From: Rhizobiales bacterium Ga0077548
GTDB lineage: Bacteria > Pseudomonadota > Alphaproteobacteria > Rhizobiales > Xanthobacteraceae
Direction: 5' to 3'
Length of the DNA stretch: 64,000 nt
Assembly: GCA_001464215.1 (NCBI GenBank)
Contig: LNEZ01000078.1
Span: 1 to 64,000, forward strand
Shown: piece by piece, positions 53,024 through 61,278 of the stretch
Layout of the letters: every line of letters starts with the position of its first letter
How positions within the stretch are numbered: the first letter of the stretch is position 1
The notes under the pieces: generated by a model
What the model saw: the letters and a program-made list of their open reading frames with translations, nothing else
Databases searched by the model: none
Told to the model about the DNA's origin: nothing
Made by a program: the position numbers and the translations under genes

Positions 53024-55357
53024 CTATTCCGCAGGCTGTTTGCGTTCGCCGCGCTGATGACTGCGCGGCTTCACTTTGCGGCGAAGTTCGGCGAGATCGG
53101 CGCGGTCCCGCACGGCAGTCCGGAACGACTGATCCTTGCCCGACAGATATTGTGGCGGACAGGCGATCTGTTCGACGCCGTACCAGGCCGCCGCCCGCAT
53201 CGTGAAGTATGGATCGACCAGGTGCGGGCGCGCGAGCGCGACGAGGTCGGCGCGGCCGGCGGCCAGAATTGTATTCACCTGATTGGCCGTTGTGATGTTG
53301 CCGACGCACATGGTCGCGATCTTCGCCTCGTTGCGGATTTGATCCGAATAAGGCGTCTGGAACATACGGCCGAAGACTGGCTCGGCGTCGTGAACGGTTT
53401 GCCCGGTTGAGACATCGATCAGGTCGCAGCCTTCGCGCGCGAAGGCGCGCGACATTTCAACGGATTCTTCGCCGGTGATGCCGCCATCTTTCCAGTCGGT
53501 GGCCGAGATGCGGACCGACATCGGTTTCGTGACCGGCCATACTTCCCGGATTGCGCGGAAAACTTCGAGCGGAAACCGCAAACGATTATCGAGTGAGCCG
53601 CCGTATTCGTCACGGCGCATATTGGTAAGCGGCGAGATGAAGGTCGCGAGCAGGTAGCCGTGTGCGCAATGAAGTTCGAGCATATCGAAGCCAGCGCGCT
53701 CTGCGCGCAGTGCAGCCTCCACGAAATCCGCCTTCACTTTATCCATATCGGTGCGCGTCATTTCGCGCGGAATTACGCTGTGCGGATAATAAGGTAGCGG
53801 CGAGGGCGCGATGATCGGCCAGGCGCCGCGCTCTAACGGCTCATCGATCCCTTCCCACATCAGTTTAGTAGCGCCCTTGCGGCCGGCGTGTCCGAGTTGC
53901 AAACAGATTTTTGCGGCGGAGTTCGCGTGTACGAAATCGACGACGCGTTTCCATGCGGCTTCCTGTTCACCGGTGTAAATACCGGCGCAACCCGGCGAGA
54001 TGCGCGCGTCTGCGGAAACGTCCGTCATCTCGGTGTAAACGAGACCGGCACCCCCGATGGCGCGCCCTCCCAGGTGCACAAGATGCCAGTCGTTCGGCAC
54101 GCCGTCTTTCGCGGAGTATTGGCACATCGGCGAGACCACGACCCGGTTCGGGATTTCCATCTCTCGCAGCCTGAGCGGCTGAAACATCGGCGGGAGCGGG
54201 CGTTTCCTGTCCGCGTGCGGCACGCCTTCCGCGAACATCTCGCCCGCTTGTTCGACGAATTCCGGCGCGCGGAGTTGCAGATTGTCCCAGGTGATCGCTT
54301 TGGAGCGCGTCATAAGGCCGAATGCGAATTGCCGCGGGTCCATCTCCCAGAAGCGGTCAATGTGCTCGAACCAAACCAGCGACACGTCGGCGGCGTGCTG
54401 CGTCTTCTCGACGTCTTCGCGGCGCGAAGTCTCGAAATCCTGAAGCGCCGCCGGAACGTCGAGCCGCGTTTTCTGAAGCGATTGAAAAAGTGCGATCGCG
54501 TCTTCCATAGCCAGTTTGGTGCCGGAGCCGATGGAAAAGTGCGCGGTCGCTTTGGCGTCGCCGAGCAACACCACGTTATTCATGACCCAGCGCTCGTTCG
54601 CGACGCGCGGAAAATTGCGCCACATCGAACGGTTGGTGATCAGCTTGTGGCCTTGTAGCTCGTCCGCGAACAGCTCTTCGATAAAGCGGGCGGACTCTTT
54701 TTCCGAGAGTTTTGCGAAGCCTGCGCGGTCGAACGTTTCTGGCTGCACCTCGAAGATCAAGGTCGAACGGCCAGCCTCGTATTGATAGCAATGCGCGATG
54801 AAGATGCCGTATTCGGTTTCCTTGAAAAAGAACGTGAAGGCGTCGAAGGATCGCGTCGAGCCCATCCACGTGAACTTGTTCGGGCGAAAGTCGATGTCGG
54901 TGCTGAAGTGCTCACGAAATTGTTCGCGGATCCGGCTGTTGGAACCGTCCGCGGCCACGATCAGATCGTAGCCTTTGAGCGATGCGAGCGACGGATCGAT
55001 TTCGGTTTCGAAGTTGAGCTTCACGCCGAGTGCGTCGGCGCGGTCGTGCAGCAGCCTGAGCAATGTCGTGCGTGCGCAGCCGCAAAAGCCGTTGCCGCCG
55101 ATGCGGTGCAGGCTGCCTTTGAAATGAATCTCAATGTCGTCCCAATAGGCAAAGTTATCGGCAATCGCCTGATAGCTCTCGCGGTCGAATTTCTCGAAGG
55201 TATCGAGCGTCTCATCCGAGAACACCACGCCGAAGCCGAACGTATCGTCGGCGCGGTTGCGCTCAAACACATCGATTTCGATGTTCGGCCAAGCCTTGGC
55301 GGCAAGAATCGAAAAATAAACGCCGGCCGGTCCGCCGCCCACGACTGCGATTCGCAT
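53024..55357 (-). CDS. Bifunctional salicylyl-CoA 5-hydroxylase / 2-aminobenzoyl-CoA monooxygenase-reductase family protein
   Basis: The 777-residue fusion has an N-terminal class A FAD monooxygenase (about residues 1-385; GGGPAG at 7-12, [29 protein letters not shown]). The C-terminal half is an old-yellow-enzyme FMN domain (about 395-765; [43 protein letters not shown]). This is the architecture of Aromatoleum (Azoarcus) evansii 2-aminobenzoyl-CoA monooxygenase/reductase, which hydroxylates C5 and reduces the ring. Sequence databases usually name it salicylyl-CoA 5-hydroxylase/oxidoreductase. The substrate (2-amino- or 2-hydroxybenzoyl-CoA) cannot be decided by eye. It is divergent from marR. 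Confidence 0.88.
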
Positions 55358-55380
55358 CGGAAAACCTCGTGTTTTCGCCG

Positions 55381-55424
55381 CTTGCAGGAAAAATAGTTTA
55401 GGCTTAAAGTAATTTCACTGCAAG
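55381..55424. promoter_or_regulatory. 44-bp nested dyad with two interpenetrating divergent promoters (probable MarR operator)
   Basis: The segment is symmetric about 55402/55403 at 17 of 22 paired positions, with outer arms CTTGCAG/CTGCAAG and inner core TTTAGGCTTAAA. On the plus strand TTGCAG (55382-55387), a 17-base spacer and TAAAGT (55405-55410) form a promoter for marR. On the minus strand TTGCAG (55423-55418), 17 bases and TAAACT (55400-55395) form one for the hydroxylase gene. A MarR dimer here would cover both. Confidence 0.7.
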
Positions 55425-55442
55425 CCGGATCGAGGCCTTCCC

Positions 55443-55949
55443 ATGGAGCTCGAACAGTCCGCGGCGCTGGACGCCGAAAGCAAGATTGCCGATGCCCCCG
55501 GCGATCATAAAGCCGAGTTGCGGCTCTGGCTGCGTTTGCTTGCCACCAACACGCTGATCGAAACCGAAATCCGCCGCCGCCTGCGCGAGCGCTTCGATGT
55601 CACGCTGCCGCGTTTCGATCTGATGGCGCAGTTGGAGCGCAAGCCGCACGGCATGACGCTCGGCGAACTTTCGCAGCGCATGATGGTGACGAACGGAAAC
55701 GTCACCGGCCTCGTCGACCGGCTGCTCGCCGAAGAAGTGATCTCGCGCAAGCAACACAAGAGCGACCGCCGCTCGCATATCGTGAGCCTGACCGAGAAAG
55801 GCCGCAAGCAATTCGCGCGCATGGCGAAAGAACATGAAGACTGGATCGCCGCGATGTTCGGCGAGCTGACGCAGAGCGAATGCGTTGCGCTCACCAAAAT
55901 GCTCGGAAAATTGAAGACGAGCGTGCGAACAGTTGCCGCGCAGAACTGA
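55443..55949 (+). CDS. MarR-family transcriptional regulator
   Basis: The 168-residue winged-helix regulator has the recognition region MTLGELSQRMMVTNGNVTGL (about 71-90) and a wing with SDRRSHIVSLTEKG. It is divergent from the bifunctional hydroxylase gene and lies 18 bases before the CoA ligase, so it likely represses both sides until an aromatic acid or its CoA ester binds. It resembles regulators such as BadR/AbmR-type proteins only in general family terms. Confidence 0.9.
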   Translation: MELEQSAALDAESKIADAPGDHKAELRLWLRLLATNTLIETEIRRRLRERFDVTLPRFDLMAQLERKPHGMTLGELSQRMMVTNGNVTGLVDRLLAEEVISRKQHKSDRRSHIVSLTEKGRKQFARMAKEHEDWIAAMFGELTQSECVALTKMLGKLKTSVRTVAAQN

Positions 55950-55967
55950 TAAGTGAAGGAGGTTCGG

Positions 55968-57605
55968 ATGATCGCAAGCGCCCATATCGATACCTTCGCA
56001 AGAGACAATCTTCCACCGCGAGAGCTGCAACCCGAGTTCGTCTTCGAGCTGCCGGAGCTTCAATATCCTGCGCGGCTGAATGCCTGCGTCGAGTTGCTGG
56101 ACAGGGCTGTGGAGAACGGTTTCAGGAATAAGCCCTGCATCGTCACGCCGACGGAAACGCTGAGCTACGCAGAGCTGCAGGAGCGTGTGAACCGGATCGC
56201 AAACGTACTCGTAAACGATCTCGGCCTCGTGCCGGGCAACCGCGTGCTGCTGCGTTCGGCAAACAACGCCATGATGGTTGCGAGCTATTTCGCGGTGCTA
56301 AAGGCAGGCGGCATTGTGGTCGCGACCATGCCGCTTCTGCGCGCGAAAGAAATTTCCTACGCAATCCAGAAAGCAAAAATCAAGTTTGCGCTGTGCGACG
56401 CGCGGCTTGAAGACGAGATGGAGAAAGCAAAACCGCTCTCACCCGATCTTAAGAAGCTCGCTTACTGGGGCAAAGGCGGCTTGGAAACGCTGATGGCACA
56501 GGAGGGCTACGAGAATTTTGCCGCCTGCAACACGGCGGCCGATGACGTCTGCCTGATCGCCTTTACCTCCGGCACCACGGGCCAGCCTAAAGGCACCATG
56601 CACTTTCACCGCGACCTGCTCGCGGTTTGTGATACGTACGGCAAAAACGTACTCCGGGCGAATGCAAACGACCGCTTCATCGGCTCGCCGCCGCTTGCGT
56701 TTACCTTCGGCGTCGGCGGACTTGTGTTTTTCCCGATGCGCGTCGGCGCTTCGACCGTGCTTTTGGAAAAATCAACGCCGGACGATTTGTTGTCTGCGAT
56801 CGAGCGGCACAGAGCGACCGTGTGCTTCACAGCTCCAACTGCATATCGCGCGATTCTCGGAAAGCTCGAAGGCCGCGATATTTCTTCGCTGCGCAAATGT
56901 GTCTCGGCCGGGGAGGCGCTTCCCAAGGCGACATGGGAAGCGTGGCAGCAGGCGACCGGCATCAAAATCCTCGACGGGATAGGCTCTACCGAAATGCTGC
57001 ATATTTTTATTGGCTCTCCGGAGGAAAGTTTGTGCGCAGGCGCGACCGGAAAACCCGTTCCCGGCTATCAGGCAAAGATCATTGACGAAAACGGCAATGC
57101 GCTGCCGCCGAATACGCCGGGCCGTCTCGCGGTACGCGGGCCGACGGGCTGCCGCTATCTCGCCGACGAGCGGCAGAAGAAATATGTCGAGGATGGCTGG
57201 AACATCACCGGCGACACATATCTTTGCGATAAAGACGGCTACTTCTGGTATCAGGCACGTTCCGACGACATGATCATTTCCGCGGGCTACAATATTGCAG
57301 GTCCCGAAGTGGAATCCGTGTTGCTTTCGCATCCGGCTGTCGCCGAATGCGGTGTAGTTGGTGCGCCGTGTCCGGAGCGCGGCCAGATCGTGAAAGCCTT
57401 TGTGGTGTTGCGCGGAGGCTTCACGGGTGATGCCGCGATGACGAAAATCCTGCAGGAATTCGTGAAAGCTGAGGTCGCGCCCTATAAATATCCGCGCGCG
57501 GTGGAATATGTGACGAGCCTGCCGAAAACCGATACCGGAAAACTGCAGCGCTTCCGCCTGCGCGAAGCAGCAAGCGCTTCCGCCAACACTAAACTGGCTT
57601 CGTGA
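55968..57605 (+). CDS. Aromatic acid-CoA ligase (2-aminobenzoate/benzoate-CoA ligase family)
   Basis: The 545-residue AMP-forming ligase has the P-loop IAFTSGTTGQPKGTM, the adenine motif GIGSTEMLH, the hinge TGDTYLCDKDGYFWYQARSDD and the catalytic Lys near the end in KTDTGKLQRFRLRE. It would activate an aromatic acid to its CoA thioester. Its link to the hydroxylase family suggests anthranilate or salicylate. I chose the ATG at 55968, which has AAGGAGG five bases upstream. The last bases overlap the RidA start (GTGA). Confidence 0.87.
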   Translation: MIASAHIDTFARDNLPPRELQPEFVFELPELQYPARLNACVELLDRAVENGFRNKPCIVTPTETLSYAELQERVNRIANVLVNDLGLVPGNRVLLRSANNAMMVASYFAVLKAGGIVVATMPLLRAKEISYAIQKAKIKFALCDARLEDEMEKAKPLSPDLKKLAYWGKGGLETLMAQEGYENFAACNTAADDVCLIAFTSGTTGQPKGTMHFHRDLLAVCDTYGKNVLRANANDRFIGSPPLAFTFGVGGLVFFPMRVGASTVLLEKSTPDDLLSAIERHRATVCFTAPTAYRAILGKLEGRDISSLRKCVSAGEALPKATWEAWQQATGIKILDGIGSTEMLHIFIGSPEESLCAGATGKPVPGYQAKIIDENGNALPPNTPGRLAVRGPTGCRYLADERQKKYVEDGWNITGDTYLCDKDGYFWYQARSDDMIISAGYNIAGPEVESVLLSHPAVAECGVVGAPCPERGQIVKAFVVLRGGFTGDAAMTKILQEFVKAEVAPYKYPRAVEYVTSLPKTDTGKLQRFRLREAASASANTKLAS

Positions 57606-58024
57606 TCATCATGTTAGATAAGAACAAGTCCGGACCCACGGTACTGCGCCCGAAAGACTGGCCGCAGCCGAAAGGCTATTCCGACGGCATGGTTGCTGCG
57701 GGCCGCGTAGTCGTCACCGGCGGTGTCGTCGGCTGGGACAGCCGAGCAAAATTTCCCGATGGTCTTGCGGCGCAGACGAAACAGACGCTCGAGAATATCG
57801 TCGCGATCATCGCTGAAGCGGGCGCCGAGCCGAAGCATATCGTGCGGCTGACCTGGTACATCACCGACATCGAAAACTATCTGCTCTTGCAGCGCGAGAT
57901 CGGCACGGTTTATCGCGAAGTCATGGGCAAGCATTTCCCCGCGATGGCGGTGGTACAGGTCGTCCGCCTCGTCGAAAAAGCGGCGCTCGTGGAAATCGAA
58001 GCGACCGCGATATTGCCCGAATAA
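57602..58024 (+). CDS. RidA/YjgF-family protein (probable enamine/imine deaminase)
   Basis: The 140-residue protein has the RidA fold, with VVVTGGVVGWDSRAKFP, QTKQTLENIVAIIAEAGAEP and the C-terminal ALVEIEATAILP. The active-site Arg of true RidA (Arg105 in SsRidA) is replaced here by Val-Arg-Leu context (QVVRLVEKAALVEIEA), so it may be a RidA subfamily member. The start is a GTG overlapping the ligase stop; an ATG at 57611 is an alternative. Coupling to the ligase suggests a job in the same pathway, perhaps hydrolysis of an enamine intermediate. Confidence 0.85.
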   Translation: MIIMLDKNKSGPTVLRPKDWPQPKGYSDGMVAAGRVVVTGGVVGWDSRAKFPDGLAAQTKQTLENIVAIIAEAGAEPKHIVRLTWYITDIENYLLLQREIGTVYREVMGKHFPAMAVVQVVRLVEKAALVEIEATAILPE

Positions 58025-58942: not shown

Positions 58943-60061
58943 TTGAAGATCGCAGTGGTCGGCGGCGGGCCGGCGGGCCTTTACTTCGCCTATCTCTGGA
59001 AGCGGAAGCATCCTGCGGCGGAAATATTGTTGTTCGAACAGAATGCGCCCGATGCCACCTTCGGCTTCGGCGTGGTGTTTTCGGATCGCGCACTCGATTT
59101 TCTGCGCGCCGACGATTCCGAAACCGTCGAAGCGATTACGCCGCATATGGAGCATTGGCGCGACATGACGCTGGTCCATCGGGGCGAGCGCGTGACCATC
59201 GATGGCGTCGGCTTTTCGGCAATCGGCAGGTTAGAGCTGCTGAATCTTTTGCAGGCGCGTGCCGCCTCCGTCGGGGTTAAGCCGGTATTTCACCGGCGCA
59301 TCGAAAGTCCGGAACAGCTTCGAGGTTTCGATCTCGTGGTCGCAGCCGACGGCGTGAATTCGTCGCTTCGTTCGTTCTATCCGCAATTCCAGACGCAGAC
59401 CGATTTGTTTCGCAACAAATTCATCTGGTTCGGGACCGGAAAAATCTTCGACACGCTCACGCAGACTTTTGTCGAATGCGAGTACGGCACCTTGAATGCG
59501 CATCACTACCGCTATGCGCCGGATAAAAGTACCTTCATCGTCGAATGCGACGGAGAAACTTTCGAGCGTGCAGGCTTCGGAAAAATGTCACCGGAAGAAA
59601 GCAGAGTACTATGCGAGCGGATCTTCGCCGATACACTCGGCCGACATCCGCTGATTTCCAACAAATCAGTCTGGCGGGATTTTCCCTGGATTTGGAACGA
59701 GCGCTGGGCACACGAAAACATCGTACTGGCCGGCGACGCGTTACACACGGCGCATTTCTCGATCGGCTCCGGTACGCGCCTCGCGCTTGAGGATTCCATC
59801 GCGCTCGTGAAGGCGCTGGAAAGCGAAACAGGTGTTTCATCCGCACTCAAGCGCTACGAGGATGAGCGAAAACCGATCGTCGGAAAAATCGTGAACGGGT
59901 CAAAAACAAGCGCGGCCTGGTACGAAAATTTTCCCGAACACATGAAACAGGCGCCGCTCGATTTTGCGATGAGCTATATCACGCGCTCGGGACGTATCGA
60001 TGACGCGCGGCTTCGCGAAATGTCGCCGAAATTTATGGCGCGCTACGACGCGGGCGCTTAG
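58943..60061 (+). CDS. FAD-dependent CoA-aryl hydroxylase, single-domain (salicylyl-CoA 5-hydroxylase-like)
   Basis: The 372-residue flavoprotein has GGGPAG (7-12), [13 protein letters not shown] and [20 protein letters not shown]. It is clearly homologous, end to end, to the N-terminal half of the bifunctional hydroxylase at 53024-55357 but lacks the old-yellow-enzyme half. Such a single-domain form resembles Streptomyces SdgC, which hydroxylates salicylyl-CoA to gentisyl-CoA. The start is a TTG with GAGAGGA six bases before it; no ATG fits. Its stop overlaps the convergent boxA stop by four bases. Confidence 0.85.
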   Translation: MKIAVVGGGPAGLYFAYLWKRKHPAAEILLFEQNAPDATFGFGVVFSDRALDFLRADDSETVEAITPHMEHWRDMTLVHRGERVTIDGVGFSAIGRLELLNLLQARAASVGVKPVFHRRIESPEQLRGFDLVVAADGVNSSLRSFYPQFQTQTDLFRNKFIWFGTGKIFDTLTQTFVECEYGTLNAHHYRYAPDKSTFIVECDGETFERAGFGKMSPEESRVLCERIFADTLGRHPLISNKSVWRDFPWIWNERWAHENIVLAGDALHTAHFSIGSGTRLALEDSIALVKALESETGVSSALKRYEDERKPIVGKIVNGSKTSAAWYENFPEHMKQAPLDFAMSYITRSGRIDDARLREMSPKFMARYDAGA

Positions 60062-61278
60062 TAAGTCTCGACGTGGAAGCGGCCTTCGTCGCGCATTTTC
60101 GAGCGGATCAAAGCCCAGTCGAGTTTGTGCTCGCGGCAGATCGAGGCGAAGGATTCTTCGACGCCTGCCTCCATGCCGCGCAAACCGCACATATAGATGT
60201 GCGTCGTGCCCTTTTGCAGCAGCGCGGCAAGATCGGCTGCGCGCTTCTTCATGCGGTCCTGCACATATTCTTTCGGCTTGCCGGCAAGCCGAGAGAACAC
60301 GAGTTCCTGATCGAGTAGCGTCTTCGGCACTTTCTGGAGCGGGCCGAAATAGGGAAGTTCCTCGGGCGTCCGCGCGCCGAAGAAGAGGTAGAGCTTGCCC
60401 TTCGAGTTCGGCATTGAGCGCCGCCGCCGTTCGGTGAAGCCGCGAAACGGCGCCGAGCCGGTGCCGGTACAGATCATAACGATGTCCGCTTCGGAATCGT
60501 CGGGCATCAGGAAGGTCGAGCCGAAAGGGCCCGCGACCTTCACGGTGTCACCCTGCTTCAGATCGCAGACGTAATTGGAGGCAATGCCCTTCTTCTCGCT
60601 GCCGTCGACGTGCTTCGTGATTACGCGCTTCACGGTGAGTGAAACATTATTCGTGTTCGGCCGTTCGCCGTCGCGTGGGCTGGCGATTGAAAAGAGCCGC
60701 ATCTTGTGCGGACGGCCATTTTCATCGATGCCGGGAATGACGATGCCGATACTCTGCCCTTCCAGCACGGGAAAAGAAGTCGTGCCGAAATCGAGAATGA
60801 CGTGGTGGATTTCGGCGGATGCGCCTTCGCCCGTCAGTTGTAAATTGCCGGTGACTTTCGCTTCCGCAGGTGCGCGGCGTCCGAACAGATTGATGCGGGG
60901 CTTGCTCGCGGAGCGCGGCGCCTTCATCTGCCCGCCCGCACCCTTATGTGCATCGTCTAAAAGCGCCGCCGCTTCGTCGTCAATCGCTTCAGCGGTTCCG
61001 ATCGCTCCATCCGTGTCGGGAATTTCTTCGACGTCAGGCAAATCCGACCACGAGAACTGTTCGTCGAGCGAGAACGGCGTTTTCACTTTCACGAAGTGAT
61101 TGATCGAGCCGGTCGGGCAGGGCGCGACGCAATCCATACAGAAATTGCACTTCGTGACATCGACCACGTAATTGTTTGCGTCATGCGTCACCGCGCCGAC
61201 CGGGCAGGTCGCCTCGCACGTGTTGCAACGGATGCAAACGGCGGGGTCGATCAGATGCTGCTTGATCGGTGCGGTCAT
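60058..61278 (-). CDS. boxA: Benzoyl-CoA 2,3-epoxidase reductase subunit BoxA
   Basis: The 406-residue reductase passes electrons from NADPH to BoxB. It has two [4Fe-4S] motifs at the N-terminus (Cys15, 18, 21, 25 and Cys44, 47, 50, 54), a linker of low complexity (about 75-125) and a ferredoxin-NADP reductase module (LFSIASPRDGERP, ICTGTGSAPFRGF, YLFFGARTPEELPYF, YMCGLRGMEAGV). It ends in FHVETY. It is the third gene of boxC-boxB-boxA, 12 bases after boxB. Confidence 0.93.
   Translation of the reverse strand: MTAPIKQHLIDPAVCIRCNTCEATCPVGAVTHDANNYVVDVTKCNFCMDCVAPCPTGSINHFVKVKTPFSLDEQFSWSDLPDVEEIPDTDGAIGTAEAIDDEAAALLDDAHKGAGGQMKAPRSASKPRINLFGRRAPAEAKVTGNLQLTGEGASAEIHHVILDFGTTSFPVLEGQSIGIVIPGIDENGRPHKMRLFSIASPRDGERPNTNNVSLTVKRVITKHVDGSEKKGIASNYVCDLKQGDTVKVAGPFGSTFLMPDDSEADIVMICTGTGSAPFRGFTERRRRSMPNSKGKLYLFFGARTPEELPYFGPLQKVPKTLLDQELVFSRLAGKPKEYVQDRMKKRAADLAALLQKGTTHIYMCGLRGMEAGVEESFASICREHKLDWALIRSKMRDEGRFHVETY

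Follow-up and report, generated by a model that had tools for sequence, protein, structure and literature searches.

The 85-bp spacer that separates a hydroxylase gene from a divergently oriented marR gene probably harbors two overlapping sigma-70-type promoters that have a single palindromic MarR operator in common, a layout that would permit the coordinate, autoregulated derepression of the genes on both sides. The spacer extends from the hydroxylase start codon to the marR start codon (positions 55358 to 55442) of the 64,000-nucleotide stretch of DNA analyzed, which is referred to here as the window.

Genes flanking the divergent spacer

On the minus strand, the spacer precedes a gene of the bifunctional salicylyl-CoA 5-hydroxylase/oxidoreductase family (53024 to 55357, 777 aa; NF006101, 1136.8 bits with a cut-off of 1078), which by analogy may encode a 2-aminobenzoyl-CoA monooxygenase/reductase-like enzyme. 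The plus strand carries, in this order, the gene for a MarR-family regulator (55443 to 55949, 168 aa; PF01047, 47.5 bits, cut-off 24.6), a benzoate-CoA ligase family gene (55953 to 57605; TIGR02262, 375.6 bits, barely above the cut-off of 375.25), for which ATG 55968 may be an alternative start, and a gene for a RidA-like protein (57602 to 58024; PF01042, 80.8 bits, cut-off 27.3). The regulator has a MarR winged-helix domain, as judged from PF01047 and from an alignment profile that matched 86 distinct PDB sequences at an E value of ≤1e-5 (best match, 3boq, 2.7e-32). The NF006101 and TIGR02262 scores place a bifunctional hydroxylase/oxidoreductase and a CoA ligase of the 2-aminobenzoyl-CoA/salicylyl-CoA pathway at this locus, and the adjoining RidA gene hints at an amino substrate or an amino/imino intermediate. 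Both sides of the spacer belong to one CoA-dependent aromatic(-acid) breakdown pathway. Likely ribosome-binding sites, GAGG in both cases and located by eye 7 nt from the ATG, are present for marR (55432 to 55435, plus strand) and for the hydroxylase gene (55365 to 55368, minus strand). A stand-alone 372-aa flavin monooxygenase with a TTG start is encoded between an enoyl-CoA hydratase gene and boxA (58943 to 60061); its match to the bifunctional hydroxylase family (NF006101) is confined to the N-terminal half and, with 406.9 bits, remains below the cut-off of 1078.

Predicted promoter elements and palindrome

A preliminary description of the spacer had proposed that each strand carries TTGCAG, 17 bases, and TAAA(G/C)T and that both promoters lie on a 44-bp imperfect palindrome, and our analysis bore out both statements. 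The predicted promoter toward marR (plus strand) has its -35 box TTGCAG at 55382 to 55387 and its -10 box TAAAGT at 55405 to 55410, and the predicted promoter toward the hydroxylase gene (minus strand) has TTGCAG at 55418 to 55423 and TAAACT at 55395 to 55400; these assignments are based on exact matches and on relatives. The two spacings of 17 bp have a common axis at 55402/55403, and no further exact match to TTGCAG-N17-TAAAST was found in the window. About the same axis, 17 of the 22 pairs of the palindrome (55381 to 55424) are symmetric. Its center is occupied by an 18-bp operator core, TAGTTTAGGCTTAAAGTA (55394 to 55411), the predicted site of a MarR dimer, so that, according to sequence and comparison, one regulator-type site overlaps core elements of both promoters, namely, the two -10 hexamers.

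By itself, the symmetry test is only moderately strong evidence. A repeat-finding tool returned palindrome arms at 55380 to 55400 and 55405 to 55425 that were 81% complementary, and in Markov sequence with the composition of the spacer, at least 17 pairs were reached at 4 of ~2,000,000 centers, which corresponds to ~0.13 per 64 kb. The palindrome score is not unique, since a second center with 17 of 22 pairs is present in the window at 60282/60283, inside boxA. That boxA palindrome (60259 to 60306) has a perfect center, CGGCTTGCC/GGCAAGCCG. When two mismatches were permitted, the window contained six TTGCAG-N17-TAAAST matches versus 2.9 expected, and at least six were present in 9 of 100 shuffles. 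With up to three mismatches permitted, the core TAGTTTAAGCTTAAACTA had a single occurrence in the window and was absent from all 100 shuffles; no other such site that would indicate a wider regulon was present in the window.

Both promoters are weak by consensus score. Each hexamer pair agrees with TTGACA/TATAAT at 3 + 4 = 7 of 12 positions, and a standard promoter scan called no promoter. An alternative pair on the bottom strand, GTGAAA-17-TATTTT, scores 8 of 12 and was rejected: its hexamers vary among seven loci of the window's genus, whereas TTGC-17/18-TAAACT is kept. The predicted bottom-strand start sits, by eye, in a pyrimidine-rich stretch, which counts against the promoter reading. 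Consensus scoring, with 7/12 for each promoter versus 8/12 for the rival pair, cannot decide the promoter question; we regard the promoter layout as solid because of the comparative data and not because of the consensus score.

Conservation within the genus

Relatives were gathered by a whole-genome search (30 loci) and from a species-level collection (80 loci); L031 and L032 repeat L006 and L003. The locus is present in seven of the eight genomes of the window's genus, namely, its own and six others, and all seven loci have a single operator with TTGC on each side. Columns invariant among these seven loci comprise all 7 of the left CTTGCAG, 16 of 18 in the operator, and all 5 of the right GCAAG; the corresponding numbers were 1/6 and 3/8 for the intervening stretches and 10/23 and 3/18 for the leaders. 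The eighth genome (G001) gave no hydroxylase match at an E value of ≤1e-120, no operator match, and only a weak MarR match (9.1e-7).

The preliminary description had named conservation of the symmetry in relatives as a test, and the outcome was mixed. The operator and the two CTTGC cores are retained, but the right arm beyond TTGC reads CTGCAAG or TCGCAAG within the genus and is not symmetric, one species (L006) has a spacing of 18 on one side with the arm shifted by 1 bp, and outside the genus the TTG is one-sided in most loci. Since symmetry is lost past TTGC and a spacing of 18 occurs, promoter boxes fit better than one long symmetric site. The broader proposal of interpenetrating divergent promoters with a central regulator-type site is supported by these alignments, in which TTGC and the core are conserved in 7/7 loci of the genus, and by the TTG spacing in relatives described below.

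Position of the outer TTG in relatives

The set used for TTG positions comprised 77 of the 110 loci; loci were dropped when no match began at the hydroxylase N terminus, when the flanking sequence was too short, or when the first 100 bp duplicated those of another locus. Exclusion of 27 loci with hydroxylases of ≤55% identity left 50 loci, which were counted at a looser operator threshold of 11/18. A TTG 16 to 18 bp upstream of the TAAANT half-site, toward the hydroxylase gene, was present in 45 of these 50 loci (the exceptions were L008, L016, L035, L036, and L109), and TTG at other spacings was found at 4 of 1175 positions. The TTG at 16 to 18 bp was directed toward the hydroxylase gene alone in 30 of the 50 loci. 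An operator score of at least 13/18 upstream of the hydroxylase gene was reached in 7/7 loci of the genus, in 34/43 other loci (hydroxylases 55 to 80% identical), and in 0.3% of Markov sequences.

In the loci examined that have a gene in between, the hydroxylase gene is divergent from a short-chain dehydrogenase (SDR) gene that precedes marR (verified by Pfam in L009, L034, and L121). Seven loci contain two operators, with start-to-start distances of 47 to 61 bp in six cases and of 73 bp in L108; this set omits L049, which has no TTG at 16 to 18 bp on any side, and operators that start <20 bases from the hydroxylase start. In six of the seven loci, the operator nearer the hydroxylase gene has a TTG at 16 to 17 bp on the side needed by the hydroxylase promoter; the distal operator has one where the opposite promoter needs it, also in six of seven, and none of the 14 unneeded sides has a TTG at 16 to 18 bp. 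Among the other single-operator loci, the TTG of the hydroxylase promoter was found in 26 of 28 (22 of 24 after deduplication), always at 17 or 18 bp, and a TTG for the opposite direction in only three (L008, L014, and L033). L008, from another genus with a similarly compact gene order, has only the marR-directed -35 box; in L033, which has a weak second operator (12/18), the unneeded side also carries a TTG, at 18 bp. In the betaproteobacterial loci L102 and L108, the operator immediately preceding marR has TTGACA 16 bp (by eye) before its TAAACT. In its distance from the half-site, TTG thus corresponds to a -35 box relative to a -10 box, and in most cases it is found only on a side that requires a promoter; this is the strongest result of the comparison. 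The outer TTGC arms are therefore best interpreted as -35 boxes, and the operator half-sites appear to have a second role as -10 boxes.

The 27 more distant loci, with hydroxylases ~50% identical, differ. An operator-like site of at least 13/18 was present in 26 of their 27 upstream regions, and a TTG at 16 to 18 bp in 1 of 22 deduplicated loci (24 before deduplication); judged by sequence, this group must use another promoter layout. In L051, L055, L057, L058, L059, and similar rhizobial loci, operator-like sites such as AACTTCAAGCTTAAAGTT separate marR from the gene of a less closely related hydroxylase; they are located 74 to 100 bp before the hydroxylase start, mostly without a TTG at 16 to 18 bp, which represents a different promoter layout with a related operator.

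Two readings of the arms are to be weighed against these data. The entire 44-bp palindrome could be one long operator or two nested sites, with the CTTGC arms as outer contacts of the regulator instead of -35 boxes. This would agree with the location of arms and core on one axis and with matches at 10 of 13 outer pairs (binomial tail of 1.3e-4, calculated for a stretch that had been selected post hoc), but the empty unneeded sides of the two-operator relatives, the asymmetry past TTGC, and the shifted arm of L006 make it unlikely. It is also conceivable, and rather improbable, that only one promoter is real and that the hexamers mirror each other simply because the operator is symmetric. TAAANT is bound to appear on both strands of a palindromic TTTAAGCTTAAA operator, and the TTG is mostly one-sided outside the genus; however, a symmetric operator does not give rise to a TTG at a distance of 17 bp outside it, and both TTGCs are invariant in the seven loci of the genus while the neighboring bases vary.

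Specificity of the predicted operator

Matches to the core with up to three mismatches were found in 33 of 101 genomes versus 58 of 101 for the reversed control. The core is thus no commoner than its control, and the case for it is one of position, not of enrichment. Sites scoring at least 14/18 occurred at 61 places in 918 kb of MarR loci (repeated loci counted) and at none in shuffled sequence, and sequence comparison revealed a conserved inverted repeat near the predicted promoter of MarR itself. That the operator belongs to a regulator other than the adjacent MarR would be compatible with the frequent distance of 0.8 to 1 kb between operator-like site and marR, and binding by MarR is itself predicted. 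The abundance of such sites in MarR loci, their position directly before marR in L102 and L108, and the strong conservation of the HTH region of MarR (22 orthologues) argue against another regulator, which we consider very unlikely.

Elsewhere in the genome of the window, one more site within three mismatches of the core, with different half-sites, was detected (L112, C49:11577-11594). It consists of the palindrome TAGTTTCAGCCGAAACTA and precedes a gene for a family 7 solute-binding protein (PF03480); no MarR-like ORF was recognizable in its 3-kb locus. One TAGTTTC site of this kind is present in each of the same-genus genomes G003 and G006. The L112 palindrome is possibly the operator of another regulator. 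A literature search with the letters of the operator returned no paper whose title concerns a MarR operator, and among open-licence PMC papers, a search for regulators of 2-aminobenzoyl-CoA or salicylyl-CoA genes yielded no description of a regulator of this operon.

Proposed mechanism

Comparison supports the predicted operator, the spacing of the -35 boxes, and the sharing of the operator by the two promoters. The operator half-sites (TTTA..TTAAA) would serve as -10 hexamers, one per strand, each with a CTTGC -35 box 17 bp upstream and outside the operator. We infer that both -10 boxes would be occluded by a MarR dimer bound at 55394 to 55411 and that MarR would repress the two transcripts, its own among them. 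Release of MarR would be brought about by a metabolite of the pathway, possibly the CoA thioester that the neighboring ligase makes, and the hydroxylase and the regulator-ligase-RidA transcript would then rise together. Such a ligand is plausible by analogy with CouR. Transcription is predicted to start 7 nt past each -10 box, near 55417 and 55388. With starts ~29 bp apart, the geometry implies that the spacer would accommodate one polymerase at a time, which would be of relevance only when a promoter fires strongly; competition may perhaps trim the ratio of the two transcripts at full induction.

The preliminary description had interpreted this geometry as an exclusive, symmetric switch, in which polymerase competition makes the two directions alternatives and the cell picks either the hydroxylase or the regulator-ligase-RidA side. 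The short distance between the predicted starts is in line with this idea, as is the overlap of each -35 box with the predicted start region of the other promoter, and in Escherichia coli, strong activation of one direction of a bidirectional promoter was reported to be able to repress the other (PMC12825309). However, both arms belong to one pathway and have the operator in common, so that one central repressor would silence and release both. Furthermore, at the five E. coli bidirectional promoters for which Warman and colleagues report tests, basal promoter activity was in no case high enough for polymerases to compete (PMC12825309). An exclusive switch is therefore improbable in our assessment, and coordinate derepression is the more likely mode of control.

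Distribution and origin of the shared layout

The two-sided pattern starting with TTGC was found in 8 of 391 genomes of the family, corresponding to the seven loci of the window's genus and one site in G009 (L113, C32:10803-10844). The latter, for which the flanking 1.5 kb on each side contained neither a hydroxylase nor a MarR match, is the sole match to the TTGC pattern away from the hydroxylase locus. The equivalent pattern starting with TTGA was present in 9 of the 391 genomes, all of them from genus g12, of which the list contains 11 genomes. All nine matches are in the spacer that separates the hydroxylase gene from the gene preceding marR; in L121, the locus checked, the latter is an SDR gene. 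In total, 16 of the 17 two-sided matches are at the hydroxylase locus, and reversed-pattern controls gave none in both scans. The right-hand GCACAA of g12 abuts the likely ribosome site of the next gene, which may account for part of its conservation. In three of the nine g12 loci (L122, L125, and L129), the hydroxylase start is separated from the shared promoter by an additional ~110 to 145 bp, in which a CCGGAATCCA-like repeat occurs. In the 50-locus count, L014, L033, and L060 were also flagged as having both boxes on one operator. L014 belongs to g12; L033 was not counted as shared because of its second, weak operator, nor was L060, since L043 and L048, which are closely related to it, lack the left TTG.

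In a tree based on hydroxylase N-termini joined to MarR sequences (44 of the 46 supplied loci were kept), g12 grouped with two-operator lineages, with an SH-aLRT of 98 for the clade that excludes the window's genus; a tree constrained to hold both shared-form genera together was not rejected (AU p = 0.163). The topology suggests that the shared layout arose twice. A palindromic operator with -10-like half-sites could seed a reciprocal promoter, the sole further need being a TTG 17 bp outside. We tentatively raise the possibility that two operator-promoters collapsed more than once into one interpenetrating unit, in the window's genus and in the second genus, and that polymerase competition then sets the regulator:enzyme ratio after the repressor has left; at present we hold this to be doubtful.

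DISCUSSION

The layout described here is real and conserved in close relatives, and the kind of control that it represents is already known, as in the case of CouR, and is not a new switch. In the E. coli bioO/BirA system, one long palindromic operator covers overlapping divergent promoters; the regulator belongs to another family, and corepression operates there instead of the metabolite release proposed here. A close parallel is CouR of Rhodococcus jostii RHA1, which p-coumaroyl-CoA releases from DNA (PMC4737184). As in the window, a MarR-type regulator, a CoA-dependent aromatic pathway, and one inverted repeat proposed for two divergent promoters are combined at couN-couR, where starts were mapped and gel shifts done, whereas our assignment is derived from sequence (PMC4737184). 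As reported, a stretch of 31 bp between the two promoters contains the CouR repeat, which overlaps the -35 box of each; in the window, the repeat overlaps both predicted -10 boxes and the promoters interpenetrate. The operator sequences also differ, that of CouR being cATTGA--TCAATg (PMC4737184).

The E. coli bidirectional promoters are likewise pseudo-symmetric DNA that fires both ways with polymerase bound in one orientation only, which in the window is predicted (PMC12825309). They have a shared -10 element and starts most often 18 bp apart, with 10 and 23 bp also common, whereas the window, as predicted from its sequence, has two separate -10 hexamers and starts ~29 bp apart and does not correspond to a bidirectional promoter with one shared -10 (PMC12825309). 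Overlapping divergent promoters are known elsewhere, for example, in pLS20 (PMC4207663). MarR_73/IadR of the Variovorax iad locus is also a MarR repressor of an aromatic pathway and binds in the region that separates its own gene from iadA; its ligand is indole-3-acetate, and in the available parts of that report, we found no shared divergent palindrome of the window's type described (PMC9613470).

Our analysis provides predicted positions for the operator and the promoters of a MarR regulator that belongs to a 2-aminobenzoyl-CoA-type pathway and of which we found no description in open-licence papers. Relatives with two separate operator-promoters and relatives with one shared operator-promoter offer a natural comparison for the effect of promoter overlap on expression ratio and noise, a question that was recently raised for E. 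coli (PMC12825309).
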